Source: an uncultured Mycoplasmatota bacterium (GTDB taxonomy: Bacteria > Bacillota_I > Bacilli_A > RF39 > UBA660). Taken from it: a stretch of DNA of 64,000 nucleotides. Below the pieces are notes generated by a model. The model saw only the letters and a program-made list of their open reading frames with translations, did no database searches and was not told the origin of the DNA. The stretch lies in NCBI GenBank assembly GCA_948467605.1, contig CAOKET010000001.1:1-64000 (forward strand). Direction: 5' to 3'. Below are positions 18,658 to 58,985 of this stretch, piece after piece. The position numbers were made by a program, and so were the translations under genes. Numbering within the stretch: the first letter of the stretch is position 1; the number at the start of each line of letters is the position of its first letter.

Positions 18658-21600
18658 TTGAGGAAAATTGCAGATTTTGTTGTTGAAAAAAGACGATTTA
18701 TACTAACAATATTTATAATATTTTCTGTAATTGCAGTAATACTTAGATCTCACGTAAATATCAATTATGATATAGCAAAATACTTACCATCTACATCAGA
18801 AACAAGAATTGGTATGGATATTATGGAGAGTGAATTTGAAGAAACTGAGAGTTCATTTAACTTGATGTTTAAAGGTTTAAAAGAAGTAGAGAAGGATAAA
18901 ATATATAATGAGTTAAAGGGCATTAATGGAGTAAGTTCTATTGATTATGATAAGACTTCTGACTATAATAAGAATAATGCGACATTATATATAGTTAATG
19001 TTGGGGACTCTAAAGATTCTAAGTTAGCAACTGATGTTTTTAATGAAATAACAGAAAAGTATAATGAATATGATATTTATACAAGTGGTGATATTTCACA
19101 GAGAAATGCACCAGTGCTTAAATTTTGGATTATTGTACTTGCAGTATTGTGTGCACTTGTAATATTAATAATTATGTGTGAATCATACATTGAACCATTC
19201 TTGTTTTTAACTGCAATACTAATGGGAGTTTTGTTAAATTCTGGTACAAATATTATATTTAGTAATGTATCATATATTACAAATTCAATATGTGCGATAC
19301 TTCAAATGGCATTATCTATGGACTATTCAATAATGCTTATGAATAGGTATAGACAAGAAAGAGAGCATGAAGAAAATAAATCAACTGCGATGAAAAATAC
19401 TTTAAGGAATGCGTTCTTATCTATATCAAGTAGTTCAGTTACAACAATAGTTGGATTATTAGTATTAGTGTTTATGAGTTTTAGAATAGGACGTGATTTA
19501 GGATTTGTATTAGCAAAAGGGGTACTATTTAGTTTAATTTGTATATTACTAGTTTTATCTGCACTTATACTTATGTTTGATAAGTTGATTAGTAAAACAA
19601 AAAAGAAATGTCCAAATATAAGATTAAATAAACTAGGTAAACTAATTTATAGGTTTAGATATATAGCAATACCATTTTTCATAATTATATTATTATTTAG
19701 TTATTTTGAAAAAGGTAATTTAGGTATTTTATATACTAGTAAACAAGATGATGAAATATCAAAAGTATTTGCTGAGAACAACCAAATAGCAATAATATAT
19801 AAAAATAAAGATGAAGAAAAAGTTTCTAAACATTTAAAGCAACTTGAATCTATGAAAAAAATTGATTTAGTTTTGGGCTATAGTAACACAATTAATGAGA
19901 AATTAAAATATAATGAATTAAATTTAAAATTAAATGATTTATCCTCTGATGTTTCAGTTGATGATTACTTATTAAAGATTATTTACTATAATTATTATAA
20001 TAAAGATGAAAATAACAAAATGTCATTTAATGAGTTTGTATCGTTTATTAAGAATGATGTATATAGTAATCAAAATATAAGTGAAAAAATAGATAATGAA
20101 ACAAAAAGTAATATTGATAGATTAGAAAATTTTACTAATGGTGTTAAAGTTAATTCAAAGAGAAATTTAAATGATATATCTAATATTCTTGGCATAGATG
20201 ATAAAAAAATATATGATATATTGACTTACTATAATTCTAAACATAATAATTTAGTTTTAGGAATGAATGACTTTATATCATTTATGAAGAGTGATGTATT
20301 AACTAATAACACATATTCTAGCGGAATATCATCATCATCTAAATCAAGTTTAAATATGTTATCAAATTTCTCAACTAAGGATAAGTTTAATGCTAAAATG
20401 TCTAGTAATGAACTAGCAAACTTATTTGGTATAGATGAAGAAAAAATGGAGCAATTATACACATATTATATAAATGTTGGTGATATAAGTACAAAACTTA
20501 CACTTCAAGAGTTTTCATCATTTGTATTAAATAATGTTATTACTAATGACCAATATTCTTCGCTTTTTGATGAGGTAACTATTAATAGTATTAAAACATT
20601 AAATACATTTAGTAATAAAAATATTATTGAGAAAGATATGAATAGTACTCAATTATCTAGTATGTTTGGTATAAGTGAAGACATTATAAAGCAATTAATG
20701 TTATTAAAATATAGTAATCAAGATAATGGTACAAAATTAAGTATATTGGAATTTATTAATTATGTGACATATATTAAGAATAATACATCATACTTAGATA
20801 ATATCGATTTAAGTAGCATAGATAATTTAAAATTATATGTTGATACATTAGATGAGAAAAGTAAAAATACTAAACTAACTGCAACAGAGTTATCCACATT
20901 AGTTGGTATTGATAGTACTCAATTATATAGTTTATATGCATTAATAGATTTAGTACAAGGTAATACAAATAATTGGGTAATGTCTCCAAATGAATTAGTT
21001 AGTTTAATATTAAATAATGAAAGTATTAAAAATACTATTGATGCTTCTACATTGGGACAATTAACATTACTTTCTACAATAATGGATAGTACTTTAAATA
21101 ATATTTCATATACATACAGTGAATTATCAAATTTTATAGGATTAGATGTAATTAGTAGTAGAAATATATATACTTTATATATAATGTCAAATACAGGTGT
21201 TAAAATATCTTCATATGATTTTGTTAATTTTGTATTAAATCATTCATCTGATTCTGCATTATCTGGTAACTTTGATAAGAATACATTAGATAAATTAAAA
21301 TTATTACAATTAGTCATGAATGATGTTAATAATAATAAAAAGTATAATAGTAGTGAACTTAGTAAATTACTTGGAATTGATAAAAGTAGTTTGGATCTTA
21401 TTTATGGATTATATATATCTAAAAGTAATAATACAACAATATCATTAAAAGAATTAGTTTCATTTTTAGTTACTGATATGATGAAAAATGAAAGTTTTAA
21501 AGATAACTTTGATCAGGATTCAAGAACTAAGATTAATACAATAAATCAAATTATTAATTCATCTTCTAATAATGTTTTATATACAAAAGATGAACTATAT

Positions 21601-22515
21601 GATATTGCTAGTAAACTAAGTGATGGATTAGATAAGAATAAGGTTGATTTAGTATATATGTATTATGGAAGTGTTAAATCATATAATGATGCTTGGACTA
21701 TTACAGTTGAGGAATTTGTAAATCACTTAAATAATAAAATATTATCTGATAGCAGATTTAATGATTTTATATCTACTGATATGAGAAATGATATAGTATC
21801 AGCGAGAGATACTATTAAAGATGCTAAAAAGTTATTGATAGGAGATAAATATTCAAGGATTGTTATTAATACTAAGTTAGATTCTGAGTCAGAAGAAACT
21901 TTTGAATTTATTCAAAATTTAAAAGATACGTTTGGCAGTGATGTATATATTATAGGAGATTCTCCTATGGCATATGAAATGAGTAAGACATTTAATAGTG
22001 AATTAGACTTTATAACACTTCTTACAATAATTGCTATATTTATAGTTGTTGCATTTACATTTAAGTCTCTTATTATTCCTATTATATTGGTAGTAATAAT
22101 ACAATGTGCTGTATTTATGACAATGGGGATATTATCCTTAGCGGGGGATAGTGTTTACTTTATAGCGATTTTAATAGTACAAAGTATATTGATGGGTGCA
22201 ACTATAGATTATGCAATACTTTATACATCTTATTATATAGAACATAGAAGAACTATGAATGTTAAAGATTCTATTATAAATTCTTATAATCAATCAATAA
22301 ATACAATTTTAACATCTGCTTCAATTTTAATTATAGTAACATTAATAGTTGGCCATTTTGCATCTGCAATAGCGGCAAAAATATGTAAAACGATATCACA
22401 AGGAACTATGTGTGCATTAGTGCTAGTATTAGTATTATTGCCACCTATTTTGGCTGGCTTTGATAAACTTATAGTCAAAAATAAAATAGATAAGGTAAAA
22501 AAGAAAACAAGATAA
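18658..22515 (+). CDS. MMPL/RND-family exporter with repeat-filled extracytoplasmic loop
   Basis: A 1285-residue two-lobed exporter. Helix 1 is at residues 13-30; a small porter loop and five to six helices (about 155-330) follow with the motif MALSMDYSIMLMNRYRQE. After the next helix (343-357) comes a large loop of about 740 residues, then the second helix bundle (about 1110-1275) with GATIDYAILYTSYY. The loop is mostly seven to eight repeats of roughly 80 residues. Likely proton-driven export of lipid-like or amphipathic substrates by family. TTG start after AAGGAAGGTG. Control by the adjacent TetR-like regulator is inferred. Confidence 0.85.
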   Translation: MRKIADFVVEKRRFILTIFIIFSVIAVILRSHVNINYDIAKYLPSTSETRIGMDIMESEFEETESSFNLMFKGLKEVEKDKIYNELKGINGVSSIDYDKTSDYNKNNATLYIVNVGDSKDSKLATDVFNEITEKYNEYDIYTSGDISQRNAPVLKFWIIVLAVLCALVILIIMCESYIEPFLFLTAILMGVLLNSGTNIIFSNVSYITNSICAILQMALSMDYSIMLMNRYRQEREHEENKSTAMKNTLRNAFLSISSSSVTTIVGLLVLVFMSFRIGRDLGFVLAKGVLFSLICILLVLSALILMFDKLISKTKKKCPNIRLNKLGKLIYRFRYIAIPFFIIILLFSYFEKGNLGILYTSKQDDEISKVFAENNQIAIIYKNKDEEKVSKHLKQLESMKKIDLVLGYSNTINEKLKYNELNLKLNDLSSDVSVDDYLLKIIYYNYYNKDENNKMSFNEFVSFIKNDVYSNQNISEKIDNETKSNIDRLENFTNGVKVNSKRNLNDISNILGIDDKKIYDILTYYNSKHNNLVLGMNDFISFMKSDVLTNNTYSSGISSSSKSSLNMLSNFSTKDKFNAKMSSNELANLFGIDEEKMEQLYTYYINVGDISTKLTLQEFSSFVLNNVITNDQYSSLFDEVTINSIKTLNTFSNKNIIEKDMNSTQLSSMFGISEDIIKQLMLLKYSNQDNGTKLSILEFINYVTYIKNNTSYLDNIDLSSIDNLKLYVDTLDEKSKNTKLTATELSTLVGIDSTQLYSLYALIDLVQGNTNNWVMSPNELVSLILNNESIKNTIDASTLGQLTLLSTIMDSTLNNISYTYSELSNFIGLDVISSRNIYTLYIMSNTGVKISSYDFVNFVLNHSSDSALSGNFDKNTLDKLKLLQLVMNDVNNNKKYNSSELSKLLGIDKSSLDLIYGLYISKSNNTTISLKELVSFLVTDMMKNESFKDNFDQDSRTKINTINQIINSSSNNVLYTKDELYDIASKLSDGLDKNKVDLVYMYYGSVKSYNDAWTITVEEFVNHLNNKILSDSRFNDFISTDMRNDIVSARDTIKDAKKLLIGDKYSRIVINTKLDSESEETFEFIQNLKDTFGSDVYIIGDSPMAYEMSKTFNSELDFITLLTIIAIFIVVAFTFKSLIIPIILVVIIQCAVFMTMGILSLAGDSVYFIAILIVQSILMGATIDYAILYTSYYIEHRRTMNVKDSIINSYNQSINTILTSASILIIVTLIVGHFASAIAAKICKTISQGTMCALVLVLVLLPPILAGFDKLIVKNKIDKVKKKTR
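19959..21830 (+). repeat. Seven to eight protein-level repeats inside the exporter
   Basis: Each unit of about 78-90 residues begins with an (I/L)S..EFVSF-like helix, then an N/D-rich linker, a helix ending near LxxF, and an ELS.LFGID...I..LYxYY helix pair. Unit starts are near residues 435, 533, 617, 700, 780, 860, 940 and a partial last. The junction before the EF helix resembles an EF-hand loop, best in units 1 (NKDENNKMSFNEF) and 4 (NQDNGTKLSILEF), degenerate elsewhere. The DNA itself is diverged, so this is an old expansion. Confidence 0.75.
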
Positions 22516-28258: not shown

Positions 28259-28372
28259 AAACCATTGTTCTTTGAAATAGATTCATATATTATGTAGATT
28301 ATATTTTGTGGTATTTTTATGTTATTATAAAAATAATAATTATATTATTAAAAATTTATAGGAGTGATTTAT

Positions 28373-28888
28373 GTGTTAAAATCTATATTATCAAAAAAAG
28401 TTGAGGTAAGAGATACTAGTCTAAATGGTAAAGGTACATTTGCTATTGAAGATATAAAAAAGGGAGAAGTGGTTTTTATTAGAGGGGGTCATTTGTTGAC
28501 GAGAGATGAAATATTTCATTATACAAATGAAGATTGTCCAGATGGTTATTGGCCAATAACGGATGATGTATGGTTAGGTGCAATAAGTGAAGAAGAATTT
28601 CCTTATCAGAAAGTATATGTAAATCACTCTTGTAATGCAAATTGTGGTATTACAGGGGAAATAACAGTGGTAGCAATGAGAGATATTAAGAGTGGTGAAG
28701 AAATTACTCAGGATTATGGACTTTTAGATCATAATAGTTTTTCTTTTAAATGTACCTGTGGTTCAGAAAACTGTAGGAAAGTAATTACGGGTGATGATTG
28801 GAAAATAAAAGAACTTCAGGATAAGTATTATGATTATTTTAATAGTTATATTAAAGAAAAAATAGATAAAGAACGATTAAATAAATAG
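28373..28888 (+). CDS. SET-domain protein, possible lysine methyltransferase
   Basis: A 171-residue, nearly minimal SET protein. GKGTFAIEDIKKGEVV opens the domain; the SAM/substrate motifs VNHSCNANC and GEEITQDYG are intact, and a post-SET zinc tail CTCGSENC is present. The fold transfers methyl groups to lysine; a bacterial target is unknown. GTG at 28373 follows AGGAGTG; an ATG two bases earlier is out of frame. Confidence 0.85.
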   Translation: MLKSILSKKVEVRDTSLNGKGTFAIEDIKKGEVVFIRGGHLLTRDEIFHYTNEDCPDGYWPITDDVWLGAISEEEFPYQKVYVNHSCNANCGITGEITVVAMRDIKSGEEITQDYGLLDHNSFSFKCTCGSENCRKVITGDDWKIKELQDKYYDYFNSYIKEKIDKERLNK

Positions 28889-28978: not shown

Positions 28979-29080
28979 GCTTGAAAAATTTTCTAAAAAG
29001 AGATAACATCATTATTGTAAAAACACTTGCATATTTAAATGATTTGCATTAAAATATCCACTAAAAAGGAAGTATGTTTT

Positions 29081-32000
29081 ATGAAAAAAGTAAAAGATAA
29101 ATTTAATAAAAAAGGTAATTTGGCATTGATTGTGGTAGCAACATTATTTTTAACATTTATAGTAGTGTTGAATATTAATTTTATTAAAGAAGATATTCCA
29201 ATGCAATCCTTTAATTATTCATTCTCTAATACTTACTTATCTTATAATAAAGATGATGTTAGGTATTTATCAGATCTTAATTTTATTATGGATAATAACT
29301 GGTCATATAATGGTTGGGCTGGTCATAGTCTTCAAAAGGATAAGAATCAGGAGGGAACTCCATTAAGCCTTTTGATAGATGGTGAAAGACGTTATTTTTC
29401 CAAAGGTATAGGTATTCATGGAAAGGGGCAGGCAACTTTTGACATTTCAGCATTATCAACTGAATTTCCTCGTTTTATTGCTAAAATTGGAGTCGATGCT
29501 TCAAGGGGAAGTAACGGAAATATTTGGATTCAAATTTTAGTATCAAATAATGGTACTAATTGGACATCTCTATTAAAGACTGGAAATATGACTGGTACGA
29601 CAAATGCTGTAGATGTTGATGTAAATGTTAGTGGGTATAAATATTTAAGAATATATGTTGATCCAGTTGGAAGTAATGCTGCTGATCATGGTACTATTGC
29701 TAATGCAAGGCTAGTAAAAGCAAACTTCGATAAAAATTCAGTTGTATATGACAAAATAAAAACATATCAATACTATGATGAAATTTTGCGTACTCAAGAT
29801 GCTAGTTATAACTATAAAAATAACTATAGACAAATACTTGAGAGAGAATTTGTAAAGAAAATTGGTTATTGGAACATCCAAGATCTTGTAGAACATACTA
29901 AAGGTATGTATGAAACTATTGAATGGATTTTAAGTAATAATGAAACTATCGAGCAAATCATTGAAGTTGGAGAAATTTCTAATACTTTAACTTTTATGAA
30001 TGTTTTAAATGATTTATATACAAAAAATAAAGAAATATTAAATACTCAAAATGGTTATGTTTATAAAAAAATGATGATTGGTCTAGCAGCGGCTTATTCT
30101 ACTGATAGAATTATTTCACCACTTTCATTTTCTTTTCAAACCCCAACTTATGATTATATGGAACGATTTGAATTAATGAAACAATTATTTGATAATAATA
30201 AACTTATGAGAGTTAAAACTAATGCTCTATCGGGTGAATTTGTGGTTAATGATTGGTTTAAGGATTATCACGTTGAGTTAATGCGTATGGTTATGCAGGA
30301 TGGTACAAGTAATGGGGATCTTATATGGCTTAATGGTTTTACTAGTGAAAAACAAAGTGTAAGTTTCTATATGATAGGTTATGTTTCACCAGTTTATACA
30401 CAAGATAAGTTTTACGATGAGGCTAATAAAGAAACATATGACCAAAGATTTTATTTAACTAAATATGGGGTTCCATATGGACTTACAAATGGAGTCAAAG
30501 TTCCAAGATATTGGATGGTTTTTGCCAATGGTGGAATTTGTTGGAATGCTTCTCGTGTTGGTCAAAGTATGTATCGTGTTAATGGTCTTCCTGCTACTGG
30601 CGCTTATCAAGTGGGCCATGAATTATATATACAATATTATGAAGATGGAAATGGTAATGGATATTGGACACCAAGATATGGTAATTGGAGCGGTGCTGGA
30701 AGTACATGGGGTGGAGGAAATCCTTATCGTTATATATTCAACTGGAACAATAAATCTTTTACTGACAAACACATTAGTGGTTCTAAGGTAGCATCAAGTA
30801 CTGGTTACTTGTATTTAGGACAGGCAAATTTAAATAATTACGAACAATATAAAAAGTCTCTATATTATAATTTACTGGCTAATTCTTATACAGATAATGC
30901 TAAAAAGTTGGAAACTTATTTTAAGGCGTTAGAAATTAATGATTTGAACTTAGATAGTTATGATTATATTATTTCTCTTTATAAAAAAATGAGCGTTAAA
31001 AATGATGGTGGAACGATAACATCTAATGATTGGTATAATTTAGCAAATAAGATAATTGATGCATATACTTATTATCCTGTTGCAATGTTTGATTTATTAA
31101 AAGTTATAAGACCATATTTAGAAGGTGCTGAAAGATTAGATATTGATAGGCTTGAAAAGGAGGCTTTAACAAAGGCTACTCAAGCAACAACAAACGAAAC
31201 TATTCAAGTTGATGGTGTTAGAACACATGCTAGACAGCTTTTAGGAAAAGCACAACCTGATCCAATATCATTCTCATTTGATGGAGAAAATGCTGGTAAA
31301 ATAGTTAAAAACCCTAATTATTCTATTGCATATGGCTATAGTTTAGATGGTGGAAAAACATTCTCTAAACAAGTAATGGATGATTCGATTACTTTAACTA
31401 AAGAAGAGTTAGAACGTATTACTGCCGAAAATGATATTATAATTAATTTTATGGGATTGAGTTATACATTTAGAATTGATATTACAAAAGGTGTAATACC
31501 TTCAACTATTTATGCTAATGATTTGGAAAATCGTGTTGTAGGTGTAAATACAACTTTTGAATGGAGAAATTCCCAGAGTGATTCTTGGAAATCTTATAAA
31601 GATAAAAGTCCAGATTTAACAGGTGATAAAACTGTTCAACTTAGAGTAGGTGCAACTGGAACGAAACTTCCAAGTGATTATGTAACATATACTTTTACAC
31701 AGGATAATCAACCAAATACAAGAAAATATGTTCCCGTATCACATTTAAGCATACATGATGTATCTACTCAAGCGACAAATAATCAGGGGTCCGCTGCATT
31801 TGCAATAGATGGAAATTATAACACAAGATGGCATAGTGCTTGGAATGGAACAGACACTCAAAGGTTTATAACAATTAAGTTAGATAAACCTAGATATGTA
31901 TCTGCAGTAGAATTTGTACCTGCAGGTGGTGGTAATGGAAGAATTAATGATGGTACAGTTTGGGGAAGTATGGATGGTGTGACTTGGGAAAAGTTATCAG

Positions 32001-33286
32001 AAATGAAAAATATTACTTATCCAGTGCAAGCTAATACTAATGAACAGGCGATTCTTTATACTAAGAGTTTTGAAATAACTGATCCTAAAGAAGTACAATA
32101 TATAAAAATAGTTGCCGATAGAACAAATGGAAATTGGTTTACAGCACGTGCTTTCAATATTTATCAAGATTTAACAAAAAACTTACGTCCAACTGCAGGT
32201 GTAGGCTATAGTGAAACTGAACCAACAACTAAAAATGTAATAGCAAGACTAGTAAATCCAAGTACTAATATCACTATAACTAATAATGGTGGAAGTGATA
32301 CATATGTATTTACTAAAAATGGAGAATTTACTTTTGAGTTTATTGATGGCAATAATGTTAAAGGTACAACTACTGCTAAAGTAGATTGGATTGATAGAAC
32401 TGCTCCAACTGCTACTATTCAATATAGTACTACGTCATTTACTAATCAAACTGTTGTTGCAACTTTGAAACCTAGTGAAGATGTAATTGTTACTAATAAT
32501 GGTGAATATAGAATTGGTGATGATGGAAGTGTTCTTGATAAAGATGGGAATATCATAAATGGATATACAGTAGATAAAGATGGTAATGTTAAGGATTCTA
32601 ATGGTAATATGATTGCTAATATAAATACATTTACATATGAATTTTTATCAAATGGTGAGTTCACTTTCGAGTTTATGGATAGGGCAGGTAATAAGGGTAA
32701 TGCAACCGCTAAGGTTACTTGGATAGATCATGATGTTCCAACTGCAGAATTAAAGTATGAAAGGGTTGGAAACAAAGTCATAGTTCGTGTTGTAAATCCT
32801 AGTGAAAATATTACTTTTCAAAATGGGAATGGAGTTTACGAATTTAGTAAAAATGGTACTTATGACATCTATTTCTTTGATAAGGTTGGAAATGTTGGTA
32901 AAGTAACTGCAATTATTAATGGCTTGAAGGATAATACTAGTGATGGTAATCAAGATGTAAATACTAAACCAGATGATAGTAATAATATAAGTAATATTGG
33001 TGGAAACAATACTACTGTTAATAATAGTGATTACAATTCTGGAAATGATATGTTTGATAAAGATGATGATACTTCATCTGTTGAACCTACTGATCCAGAT
33101 AATCAAAAACCAAGCGAAAATGATAAGCCAAATGATAATAATCAAAATATTGTTAATAAAGAAGATACAAAAGTAAATAATAATGATAATAAAAAAGGTA
33201 TTTATATTGTTATCGCATCAATTGTAACAACTCTTGTAATTGTCATTATTGGCGCTTTTGTTGCTCATAAGAAAAAAACTTTATAA
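29081..33286 (+). CDS. Giant surface protein: NPCBM, transglutaminase-like, F5/8C and Ig-like domains
   Basis: A 1401-residue exported protein. A signal anchor (residues 11-33) precedes an NPCBM-like carbohydrate-binding domain (about 55-215) and a central region whose GGICWNASRVGQSMY...QVGHELY (Cys 487, His 513) looks like a transglutaminase-type Cys/His pair. Then come beta domains, an F5/8-type C (discoidin) domain (about 885-1030), three Ig-like repeats (about 1035-1285), an Asn/Asp-rich spacer and a C-terminal helix with KKKTL tail. No LPxTG. It probably binds host or dietary glycans at the cell surface. ATG 29081 follows AAAGGAAG. Confidence 0.8.
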   Translation: MKKVKDKFNKKGNLALIVVATLFLTFIVVLNINFIKEDIPMQSFNYSFSNTYLSYNKDDVRYLSDLNFIMDNNWSYNGWAGHSLQKDKNQEGTPLSLLIDGERRYFSKGIGIHGKGQATFDISALSTEFPRFIAKIGVDASRGSNGNIWIQILVSNNGTNWTSLLKTGNMTGTTNAVDVDVNVSGYKYLRIYVDPVGSNAADHGTIANARLVKANFDKNSVVYDKIKTYQYYDEILRTQDASYNYKNNYRQILEREFVKKIGYWNIQDLVEHTKGMYETIEWILSNNETIEQIIEVGEISNTLTFMNVLNDLYTKNKEILNTQNGYVYKKMMIGLAAAYSTDRIISPLSFSFQTPTYDYMERFELMKQLFDNNKLMRVKTNALSGEFVVNDWFKDYHVELMRMVMQDGTSNGDLIWLNGFTSEKQSVSFYMIGYVSPVYTQDKFYDEANKETYDQRFYLTKYGVPYGLTNGVKVPRYWMVFANGGICWNASRVGQSMYRVNGLPATGAYQVGHELYIQYYEDGNGNGYWTPRYGNWSGAGSTWGGGNPYRYIFNWNNKSFTDKHISGSKVASSTGYLYLGQANLNNYEQYKKSLYYNLLANSYTDNAKKLETYFKALEINDLNLDSYDYIISLYKKMSVKNDGGTITSNDWYNLANKIIDAYTYYPVAMFDLLKVIRPYLEGAERLDIDRLEKEALTKATQATTNETIQVDGVRTHARQLLGKAQPDPISFSFDGENAGKIVKNPNYSIAYGYSLDGGKTFSKQVMDDSITLTKEELERITAENDIIINFMGLSYTFRIDITKGVIPSTIYANDLENRVVGVNTTFEWRNSQSDSWKSYKDKSPDLTGDKTVQLRVGATGTKLPSDYVTYTFTQDNQPNTRKYVPVSHLSIHDVSTQATNNQGSAAFAIDGNYNTRWHSAWNGTDTQRFITIKLDKPRYVSAVEFVPAGGGNGRINDGTVWGSMDGVTWEKLSEMKNITYPVQANTNEQAILYTKSFEITDPKEVQYIKIVADRTNGNWFTARAFNIYQDLTKNLRPTAGVGYSETEPTTKNVIARLVNPSTNITITNNGGSDTYVFTKNGEFTFEFIDGNNVKGTTTAKVDWIDRTAPTATIQYSTTSFTNQTVVATLKPSEDVIVTNNGEYRIGDDGSVLDKDGNIINGYTVDKDGNVKDSNGNMIANINTFTYEFLSNGEFTFEFMDRAGNKGNATAKVTWIDHDVPTAELKYERVGNKVIVRVVNPSENITFQNGNGVYEFSKNGTYDIYFFDKVGNVGKVTAIINGLKDNTSDGNQDVNTKPDDSNNISNIGGNNTTVNNSDYNSGNDMFDKDDDTSSVEPTDPDNQKPSENDKPNDNNQNIVNKEDTKVNNNDNKKGIYIVIASIVTTLVIVIIGAFVAHKKKTL

Positions 33287-33434: not shown

Positions 33435-33641
33435 ATGCCTGAAAAATGCAAATTAAAATATCTTAAAATTTGTAAAAATCAAGACTTAGTTTATGAAGTT
33501 ATTGATGAATGGAATATTTTTCTATATCAAAATATTTCTGCTTCTAAAGAAGAAAAAATGAAAATGTTAGAGCAGATTAAAACTAAAGATTTTTTGTTAT
33601 ATCAATCTATGAAAGAGGATATTAATGATGAATTATACTGA
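33435..33641 (+). CDS. Small hypothetical protein
   Basis: A 68-residue, helical, Lys/Glu-rich protein with no recognised domain. GGGAGAG precedes the start, and an extended -10 promoter lies upstream. It overlaps the next gene by 17 bases, so they are translationally coupled. A small partner or antitoxin-like cofactor of the downstream HExxH protein is possible but unsupported beyond the arrangement. Confidence 0.65.
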   Translation: MPEKCKLKYLKICKNQDLVYEVIDEWNIFLYQNISASKEEKMKMLEQIKTKDFLLYQSMKEDINDELY

Positions 33642-34821
33642 TCTTTTTTCTTCCTTTAGTGAGTACTTTATGGAATTAGATAAAATTTGTGAAGAAAAGA
33701 ACTGGGATGATATAACTATAAAAACATTAAGAAAGTGGCTTAGTTCTGTTTTGTATTTTTACAATCCAAATGATAATATTTTAGAACATCTTGGTGTACA
33801 TGAATATATAAATAATAGTTTAGAAAAATTAAAACAAGTAAAAGATATAAAAGTATTGAGATTAGATCAAGTAATTAGTAATCCTAATTGTTCTTTGTTT
33901 AAATATATTAAAAAAATACCTTTTGATAAAGATAGTTTTAAAATTAGATTATCAAAAAGGGGAGAATGTTTTATTTTAGATGAAAATGGCGATTATTATC
34001 TGTCAGTATATGGAGAGTGTCATCGTATGGATAAAACAATCGAATTATTGGATGAAGGGGGAGTAGAAAATCTATTTCATCATGAATTACAGCACATAGA
34101 TCAATATTATATTTATCCTTCTGAATTTCCTTTTGCAAGCGATATGCTGAAAATGTTATGTGAGGGTGAAGCAGAATATCATCGTTATCTTATAAATAGG
34201 GTTTCAAATTTCTTACCTATAGAGGAAAGTAGTATATATTATATTTATTATCTTGTATATACATTACTGATGCTTGTTATACCAAAGGAAATGCAAGAAT
34301 GTTGGAATTCAACATACAGATATAACACAGCCATCGTCTCTGACATTTTTAAGTACATATCTGATTCTGAAGTAAATAGAAAAAGATTTTCTCAATTATT
34401 TGCTTTGATAACTCTTATTGTAGCTTATTGCAATCCTCAAAATACAGAAGAAATAATTAATGCTTCAGTTGACACAAGTATGAATAGATACTTAGACTCA
34501 TTAGAAACTTTGGATCAAATTATTCAATCTGGAATAGAAAAGGGGAAGGGAGAGTACCAAAATAAAGGAGAATTGTCACGATATCAAATTTTAGGAGATA
34601 AATATTATAGAAAATACCAGTATTGTCAATTTGGGATAGAAATGAATAAAAAAATGAAACTATTATTAAGCCAGAGATTAACGTTTAAAGATCTTTTTAG
34701 ACAATTATTAGAAAGTACTATTTGTTTAATTAATCAAAATGAAACTGATTCTACGGAAAAATATTCTTTTATTGATAAAATAATAAAAAATAATTTATTA
34801 AATAATAAAAGAATATCCTAA
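33625..34821 (+). CDS. HExxH metalloprotease-like protein
   Basis: A 398-residue protein with LFHHELQHIDQ (HExxH near residues 153-157) and, about 29 residues on, CEGEAEYHRYL, which fits a gluzincin third-ligand Glu. Hydrophobic stretch YYIYYLVYTLLMLVIP near 207-222 could be buried or a membrane helix. It is not obviously paralogous to the 22.6/24.4 kb HExxH pair outside the motif. Family unknown. The coupled 68-residue gene precedes it. Confidence 0.65.
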   Translation: MMNYTDLFSSFSEYFMELDKICEEKNWDDITIKTLRKWLSSVLYFYNPNDNILEHLGVHEYINNSLEKLKQVKDIKVLRLDQVISNPNCSLFKYIKKIPFDKDSFKIRLSKRGECFILDENGDYYLSVYGECHRMDKTIELLDEGGVENLFHHELQHIDQYYIYPSEFPFASDMLKMLCEGEAEYHRYLINRVSNFLPIEESSIYYIYYLVYTLLMLVIPKEMQECWNSTYRYNTAIVSDIFKYISDSEVNRKRFSQLFALITLIVAYCNPQNTEEIINASVDTSMNRYLDSLETLDQIIQSGIEKGKGEYQNKGELSRYQILGDKYYRKYQYCQFGIEMNKKMKLLLSQRLTFKDLFRQLLESTICLINQNETDSTEKYSFIDKIIKNNLLNNKRIS

Positions 34822-57287: not shown

Positions 57288-58985
57288 ATGTTTGAGGATA
57301 ACTTTTATCCAATAGATTTTAATAAGTATAATCCAGATGCTGAAATTTATGATTCTGATCAAACTAAAGCTGGTGACTATTGGAAACTTATATATGCTGA
57401 TGATAATGAAATTGATAAATTATTTACGTATTCAAATATTGCATTTGTTCTTCCAAAAATATCAAATAATGAACTAAGAACTAAGATTAAGAATAGATTA
57501 CTACAATATATTTATAATACAAATACAATTTCATATTGCGCTATTAATATATATAGATCTAATTTATTAAGTAAAATTGAGATATCTAATATTTTCAAAA
57601 GCGATAAATTTAGAGCAGATGTTATGGAAAAAATTAGTGATAATGAAACCCTTGATATTCAAAATGTACGTAATATTATTGATATGCAATTTTATTTTGA
57701 AAATATTGATGATAAGGTTTCTAGCATTTCTTACATAATCGAACTTATTAGATCTAGAGAAAATCCTGGTGAGAATTTGATATATGTTTTAGAGGAAATT
57801 AAACATTGTAAAGAAAATGAGGTATATTCTTATTTATCATCAAAATATTATAATCAATTACCTGAATACTATAAAAACTATTTGAGGATTAAAGATAATC
57901 CTGCTTATTTATATGATAAAAGTTTAAAGTTCATTTCTCAAAATTCATGTATTGGTATAGATCCTAGTATAAGTATAGGTGTTGAAATCGAGGCAAATGG
58001 ACATGTGCCGTATATTTTTAGTGATTTTTTATATAGTCAAAAAGATTTTTACAGGTATTTTAAAACTGATATGGATGCGACTGTACCTAATGGAATAGAG
58101 CTTATCAGCAGGCCCTTTAATGATAAAGTAGAAGATGTATCAAGATTTTGTGCTATATGTGAGACAATGCAAGAACTTGGATATTATTACGATGAAAATA
58201 CTGCTAATGCTTCATTTCAAATTAATTTAGGGCTTGATTATTTGGATACTGCAAAATCTATACTTGTTTTTTATGAATTATTTGGTAATTGCGAAGAATT
58301 GTTATATTATATTTCAAACGAGGAAGGACAGATAATACGTAATCCTATTATGACTAGTAGATTTTCCCCTATTTCAAAAAACATTGGTACTAGAGTACTA
58401 GATGAAGGAATTTCTAGAAATTCTGTTATAGAAATGTTTAACGTTGATTTATCGTCTATGGATAATGAAATGGGTCTAAAATATAAGCGCGGTTCAATAT
58501 GTTTACGTGGAACAAGTGATGAAGATTATAGGTTTGAAATAAGAATATCTAATTCAAATGTTGATTTTAAGAGTTGCATTGATAATATTAGATTGTATGG
58601 TAAGATGATGGAAATTGCTAAGAAAATTGCAGATATATTAAGAAAAGATTCAATTACAGAAGAAGAAGAGGAATTGTTAAATAAATATGTTGATTTGCAA
58701 GATAAGAGTTTAGATTTAAGTGATAAATTAATTTTATTAATGGATATGCTTTTTAGTGATAGTAGTATCAAAGATATTTATTATAATAGGTATGTTTCTA
58801 CTTTGAAAAAGAAAAAGGAAACACAAACAAAAAATTACGATATTAATGTTGGGTGTGTAGAGTTTCAAGATTTATACGAGTCAAAATTTGAGCAAGATGG
58901 AAATATATCATATGACCCTGAAACAGGTATTTATGTTGAAGATGGTAGGATTTCATATATGAATATTGATCAAAGGAAAAAATAA
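57288..58985 (+). CDS. Amidoligase-like protein
   Basis: A 565-residue soluble protein. The N-terminal 220 residues are helical and repeat-like, with no recognised family. Residues 225-430 resemble amidoligase/glutamine-synthetase-fold proteins: SIGVEIEANGHVP, then YFKTDMDATVPNGIELISRP, ASFQINLGLDYL at the usual HxHV position, and YRFEIRIS. The HxHV position is degenerate. Members of that fold ligate amino groups to carboxylates, often in peptide or cell-wall modification. Monocistronic with a weak Shine-Dalgarno (AAGTAGGT). Confidence 0.6.
   Translation: MFEDNFYPIDFNKYNPDAEIYDSDQTKAGDYWKLIYADDNEIDKLFTYSNIAFVLPKISNNELRTKIKNRLLQYIYNTNTISYCAINIYRSNLLSKIEISNIFKSDKFRADVMEKISDNETLDIQNVRNIIDMQFYFENIDDKVSSISYIIELIRSRENPGENLIYVLEEIKHCKENEVYSYLSSKYYNQLPEYYKNYLRIKDNPAYLYDKSLKFISQNSCIGIDPSISIGVEIEANGHVPYIFSDFLYSQKDFYRYFKTDMDATVPNGIELISRPFNDKVEDVSRFCAICETMQELGYYYDENTANASFQINLGLDYLDTAKSILVFYELFGNCEELLYYISNEEGQIIRNPIMTSRFSPISKNIGTRVLDEGISRNSVIEMFNVDLSSMDNEMGLKYKRGSICLRGTSDEDYRFEIRISNSNVDFKSCIDNIRLYGKMMEIAKKIADILRKDSITEEEEELLNKYVDLQDKSLDLSDKLILLMDMLFSDSSIKDIYYNRYVSTLKKKKETQTKNYDINVGCVEFQDLYESKFEQDGNISYDPETGIYVEDGRISYMNIDQRKK

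Follow-up and report, generated by a model that had tools for sequence, protein, structure and literature searches.

This analysis concerns one gene in a 64,000-nucleotide stretch of DNA from an uncultured Mycoplasmatota bacterium (contig CAOKET010000001.1, positions 1 to 64,000; the window). The gene lies at 29081-33286 (+), and its product is a large surface protein anchored in the membrane. In it, two domains of carbohydrate-binding type, NPCBM and F5/8C, flank an unnamed core (residues ~220-880). We read the protein, with a probability of about 0.5, as a surface-tethered, glycan-directed cysteine peptidase that would cleave glycoproteins by means of Cys487 and His513. After export, its C terminus would keep it in the cell membrane, and the cysteine hydrolase on display would be a distant relative of the transglutaminase-like superfamily. 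Sugar chains on a glycoprotein of host or dietary origin would be bound by NPCBM and F5/8C, and the core would attack a nearby amide bond through Cys487 and His513, forming an acyl-cysteine (acyl-enzyme). Water would then complete the cleavage of the protein part; an amine would instead give a crosslink, which is one of the rivals considered below. We infer that the protein is an enzyme, that its reaction is peptide cleavage and that its substrate is a glycoprotein. The residues at the putative active site are as follows.

30488-30700 (+): transglutaminase-like putative catalytic stretch, residues 470-540, from profile-profile comparison
30539-30541 (+): Cys487, presumed nucleophile and sole cysteine of the protein, the same in all 36 aligned sequences
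30617-30619 (+): His513, presumed general base, 26 residues past Cys487, invariant in 36 of 36 sequences with a spacing of 26 in all
30665-30679 (+): Trp529 to Tyr533, from the alignment; the expected third catalytic residue lies four positions after the tryptophan (W+4) and is a tyrosine here

The sequence-only reading had proposed a transglutaminase-like Cys487-His513 pair, and both residues lie where it placed them. Their conservation was assessed in an alignment of 36 sequences including the window protein (A2), which leaves out the fragment loci as well as L003, L005, L006, L010 and L013 (whose stretch is that of L010). At identities to the window protein down to 25%, Cys487, His513, Gln510, Trp478, Trp529, Arg402, Tyr434, Gly502 and Pro504 are invariant. 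The cysteine and histidine are also invariant in a 15-row alignment (A1) that includes L003, L005, L006 and L010, and the pair is kept in the later-found L102 and L161-L163; the fragment G552:C22:7429-9081 lay outside the inspected sequences. Among 20 full or near-full sequences, the window protein, L002 and L094 have a single cysteine, at the equivalent site; a few additional cysteines, most of them scattered, occur in the remaining sequences. Because the window protein has one cysteine only, Cys487 is not a disulfide or metal site, and a lone invariant cysteine fits the nucleophile of an exported enzyme.

The third catalytic position is more variable. Asparagine occupies W+4 in 24 of the 36 sequences and tyrosine in 12, the window protein included; in the superfamily, this residue is usually aspartate. 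In a maximum-likelihood tree (computed with the trait column kept in the alignment), the Asn/Tyr label needs three changes. Since well-supported branches force all three, tyrosine at W+4 arose in the clade of the window protein and, independently, near L031 and L042. The residue two positions past Tyr533, Asn535, is common to the window protein and eight close relatives and, at a guess, might take over the role of the third residue.

Kinship to the transglutaminase-like superfamily was assessed by comparing a profile of family residues 440-580 with Transglut_core (PF01841) domains collected from the same class. The profile-profile probability was 35.5% against 24 sequences, 63.2% against 15 with short loops and 13.8% against the eight with the shortest loops, and in this last set the alignment pairs cysteine with cysteine and histidine with histidine. 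The similarity is specific: two other parts of the window protein used as controls gave at most 0.5%, and 30 + 50 + 50 column shuffles at most 0.6%. The probabilities are modest and the aligned stretch is short (31-61 columns in default runs). An identical Cys-His spacing is seen by eye in L074, one of the PF01841 sequences. As in the superfamily, the cysteine stands at a predicted helix start, the histidine at a strand start 26 residues on, and the next strand carries W+4. Unlike the superfamily, the window family has asparagine or tyrosine for the usual aspartate, a long N-terminal helical part and a TPR-like segment, and it misses the Pfam threshold and has no Pfam or NCBIfam name. Together with the full conservation of the pair, these comparisons support the transglutaminase-like label, and distant homology of the core stretch to this superfamily is likely and not proven. 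We do not file the core as a PF01841 member, because the Pfam threshold is unmet. Descent from NlpC/P60, CHAP or C39_2 (C39) was rejected at profile-profile probabilities of at most 1.1%. The window genome also contains two ordinary Transglut_core genes (G000:C22:22600-22869 and C17:7547-7720), whose frames of ~300 residues are unlike the window protein.

The core had been described as resisting naming by eye, and it resisted the searches as well: neither Pfam nor NCBIfam nor the PDB sequences gave a match. A PDB sequence search with the whole protein at E 0.1 returned 15 chains, all on the two carbohydrate-binding module (CBM) domains and none on the core, and with the core profile the PDB search yielded no more than three weak matches, of which two are TPR designs. 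AlphaFold2 was run on constructs of 665 and 275 residues with 11 close sequences each, reaching a mean predicted local distance difference test score (pLDDT) of 53.4 and 39.9. Both runs put residues 492-501 in a helix and residues ~513-521 and 526-535 in strands, at pLDDT < 40; this helix-strand-strand order would be the right one for the transglutaminase-like superfamily, a weak indication. Foldseek with the 665-residue model returned TPR chains only (best E 0.085, nothing below 0.001). Structure prediction with Foldseek, the check proposed in the sequence-only reading, thus found a TPR-like segment and gave no decision on the catalytic stretch. Apart from this segment, which lies downstream, the centre matched no unrelated known fold. 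With Cys487 and His513 conserved as well, neither outcome that the sequence-only reading named as refuting it came about.

The gene is intact, with an uninterrupted open reading frame of the 1401 residues first claimed for it. The core has a ratio of nonsynonymous to synonymous substitution rates (dN/dS) of 0.18-0.19 against four relatives, which rules out a chance open reading frame or a decaying gene; a chance origin is rejected because of this ratio together with the invariance of Cys487, His513, Gln510, Trp478, Trp529 and Arg402 in all 36 sequences. By these sequence measures, the core is a real, ancient, selected and unnamed family. Literature searches, which most subscription papers lay outside, returned no description of such a family. 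Among 5.39 million papers, "transglutaminase" and "NPCBM" occur together in one, which deals with intracellular immune systems, and a table of host-related domains in one mycoplasma domain survey, itself available in part, lists IPR002931 Transglutaminase-like.

The architecture is of an export type, and the following features make up the gene and the rest of the protein.

29067-29072 (+): ribosome-binding site AGGAAG, 8 nucleotides 5' of the ATG at 29081, from sequence
29081-33286 (+): the gene, 1401 residues
29120-29176 (+): N-terminal hydrophobic segment (signal or membrane anchor), residues 14-32, from hydropathy
29261-29713 (+): NPCBM (CBM51-type), residues 61-211, Pfam PF08305, E 8e-24, 84.6 bits against a threshold of 23.9
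29747-30370 (+): N-terminal helical part of the unnamed core, residues 223-430, including the invariant Arg402, from the alignment, with weak helices in the AlphaFold2 model
30800-31183 (+): TPR-like helical segment, residues 574-701, AlphaFold2 pLDDT mostly 57-87, best Foldseek matches TPR chains at E >= 0.085
31223-31708 (+): pair of Ig-like modules, residues 715-876, a unit recurring elsewhere without the core
31763-32149 (+): F5/8C (CBM32-type), residues 895-1023, Pfam PF00754, E 1.6e-19, 70.7 bits against a threshold of 28.2
32180-32920 (+): about three Ig-like repeats, residues 1034-1280, by eye, with Big_3_2 scored in relative L008
32978-33196 (+): Asn/Asp-rich flexible linker, residues 1300-1372, from composition
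33200-33262 (+): C-terminal membrane helix followed by KKK, residues 1374-1394, from hydropathy, with no LPxTG at the C terminus

Both flanking domains named in the sequence-only reading score above their Pfam thresholds. The Ig-like domains it named after F5/8C are visible by eye, but they have no Pfam score in the window protein itself, Big_3_2 being scored in relative L008 (E 4.6e-15). The C-terminal membrane helix in place of LPxTG was also correctly seen. Sortase anchoring was rejected, the sole LPxT[GAN] match being an internal LPATG at 503, with none before the C-terminal helix. Because the genome has a sortase gene, the helix is not explained by the lack of one. As for the start site, an alternative in-frame ATG lies at 29039; the ATG at 29081 is the better start because AGGAAG sits 8 nucleotides ahead of it.

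This layout recurs in further gut bacteria and in mycoplasma-like genomes. In a Pfam scan of 18 full or near-full relatives representing 17 distinct genes (L017 and L093 are the same gene; L014-L017, L041, L050 and L051 are among them), NPCBM is present in 18 of 18 and F5/8C in 17 of 18, being absent only from L097. The means of attachment varies, with a membrane helix in most, a dockerin in L009 and L092, a PPKTG-type (LPxTG-like) tail in L093 and a lipobox-like cysteine in L095 and L102 (lipobox and PPKTG tail read by eye). Across the relatives, attachment to the surface persists while its means changes.

Genomic context offers a hint in two cases and says nothing in the others. In G324, a genome that reads TGA as tryptophan (TGA=W), the family gene lies 197 bp upstream of a GH84 glycosidase gene with F5/8C domains, on the same strand. 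The dockerin-bearing relative L009 adjoins a protein that combines Transglut_core, cohesin, Ig-like and dockerin domains (L009:1482-5225, +). Other neighbours scanned are housekeeping, transport, recombinase or nameless genes, and those of the window gene are likewise. The sequence-only reading had suggested that the protein may crosslink or cleave host or dietary glycoproteins; context overall favours action on glycoproteins, and none of the evidence here decides between crosslinking and cleaving. G324 holds two distant core copies (L094:8018-11935 and L102:7716-11708); the one that is not beside the GH84 gene has an N-terminal lipobox-like cysteine.

The family is patchy, centred on Bacilli and rare outside. 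Ten relatives in genome contigs share 60-80% identity in their best segment, in records titled uncultured Tenericutes, Erysipelotrichales, Erysipelotrichaceae, Bacilli and Clostridium. Core matches were found in eight genomes among 60 relatives, the window's included, and in 17 of 395 class genomes including the window's (16 of the 394 others). The phylum search gave 17 of 392 genomes, again counting the window's, four of which (G426, G479, G499 and G501) match solely outside the catalytic stretch. Among 398 genomes of the phylum of L009's genome, inferred to be another phylum, the catalytic stretch occurs in L009's genome only, and nine more match the Ig-like pair alone (loci L167-L176; fetched loci were checked by motif). 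As it is found without the catalytic stretch in these nine genomes, the Ig-like pair (31223-31708; core model positions ~499-651) is a mobile module of wider use. Several genomes carry two or three core copies, and the window genome (assembly of 1.38 Mb, 91% complete) carries one. Three genomes require the mycoplasma-type reading of TGA as tryptophan and keep the whole design; L041, L050 and L051 are labelled mycoplasma-type from this reading alone. The second, more distant copy in G324 keeps the cysteine, the histidine and the W+4 asparagine. No relatives were found in the viral contigs or plasmids searched.

Several results weigh against a transglutaminase-like glycoprotein peptidase. The catalytic stretch has no reliable fold in the AlphaFold2 models (pLDDT < 40), which speak neither for nor against the papain-like alpha/beta fold of the superfamily. 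The longest hhalign alignments, and those with the two larger Transglut_core sets, put His513 in a gap. Pfam finds no transglutaminase match in any member scanned, and none in the window protein at E 0.1; similarly, a genome-wide PF01841 search of the window genome missed the window gene and returned two other places only. The third catalytic position of the window protein is tyrosine, not aspartate or asparagine. Furthermore, no glycosidase lies beside the window gene, and the GH84 neighbour occurs at one of four TGA=W loci examined, the scanned neighbours of the other three being housekeeping genes or without a family.

Two alternatives would change what the core does. The Cys-His centre might be that of a true transglutaminase or other acyl-transferase. 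In that case an isopeptide or ester bond would link a glycoprotein of the host or of mucus to the surface of the bacterium, and the protein would act as a covalent adhesin. Cys-His chemistry is common to the transglutaminase-like superfamily, and a single-cysteine, cell-anchored, CBM-bearing layout would suit a covalent anchor, but no sequence measure used here separates the two activities. Known exported bacterial proteins of transglutaminase-like type are for the most part classed with the peptidases, as are the dockerin-bearing ones of R. flavefaciens in the part of that study available (PMC2930009), and we consider this alternative unlikely. The core could also be a scaffold in a non-catalytic adhesin whose NPCBM, F5/8C and Ig-like domains bind glycans, an idea in keeping with two domains of glycan-binding type on a long Ig-like stalk and with tyrosine at the third position in the clade of the window protein. 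A mere scaffold, which we regard as similarly improbable, is hard to square with Cys, His, Gln and Trp residues that stay invariant in 36 sequences at identities as low as 25%, and with a lone conserved free cysteine that has no evident structural role.

We hold two further alternatives to be very unlikely. Cytoplasmic peptide:N-glycanase (PNGase) has a transglutaminase-like fold and releases glycans; a PNGase-like amidase releasing whole glycans from glycoproteins would accord with the same superfamily chemistry and with glycan-binding domains on both sides of the core, but the neighbours of the window gene showed no glycan-import genes. The protein might otherwise degrade dietary or microbial protein, its CBMs binding plant or bacterial polysaccharides. 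The dockerins of two relatives also fit fibre-degrading complexes, but the TGA=W (mycoplasma-type) members keep the whole design, and mycoplasma-type bacteria inhabit animals and are not known to subsist on plant fibre.

The glycoprotein peptidase that we favour has its closest parallel in the M60-like (PF13402) peptidases. According to the part of the source available, these are host-associated and exported, carry CBM32 and CBM51, and occur in gut bacteria and a mycoplasma (PMC3267712). Both they and the window protein are exported, with CBM32 and CBM51 on one chain. In contrast, the window protein lacks a PF13402 match and its putative active residue is cysteine. The best reading is of a design analogous to that of the M60-like peptidases and unrelated to them. 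An M60-like metallopeptidase as such was rejected, as no HExxH occurs anywhere in the window protein. In R. flavefaciens FD-1, dockerin-bearing transglutaminase-like proteins are tabulated under peptidases, in the part of that paper available (PMC2930009). They resemble this family in being exported by gut bacteria with a transglutaminase-like domain, in some cases together with a dockerin, as in two relatives here. The window protein lacks a dockerin and has a membrane helix instead; the likeness is one of domain type. Large GH84 and GH101 glycosidases with F5/8C have the same accessory modules, and one TGA=W relative adjoins a GH84 gene, but the window protein has no glycosidase domain.

More tentatively, and with less than even odds, the family may be an unnamed group of cell-surface glycoproteases, shared by small-genome gut Bacilli and mycoplasma-type bacteria, that use a cysteine where their counterparts, the mucin-directed M60-like metallopeptidases, use a metal. 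Some lineages, including that of the window protein, would have swapped the third asparagine for tyrosine, changing substrate or reaction. The cutting of mucosal glycoproteins is credited mainly to CBM-bearing metallo- and serine peptidases. In the portion available of a 2012 MEROPS survey, CBM51 is on no peptidase and the CBM32 table shown holds M, S and T families only (PMC3267712). If true, a family of cysteine type that bears CBM51 and CBM32 on a single chain would add a catalytic type. The window gene may be the organism's one dedicated glycan-directed surface enzyme, because it has the only F5/8C over the cut-off in the genome assembly, and its substrate would then reveal what the cell lives on. 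The TGA=W members make the family a candidate, open to testing, for how bacteria with very small gene sets make contact with a host.

Elsewhere in the window, a 398-residue protein encoded just downstream of the gene (33625-34821, +) has HELQH (HExxH type) near its middle and no Pfam match over the cut-off; it is possibly an uncharacterised zinc peptidase. A 565-residue protein without a Pfam match follows the RNA polymerase alpha gene (57288-58985, +). At 18658-22515 (+), a 1285-residue MMPL-type transporter has a long stretch without a strong family match between its two transporter halves. Finally, 28364-28888 (+) encodes a SET-domain protein (Pfam E 1.9e-14), here in a small bacterial genome.

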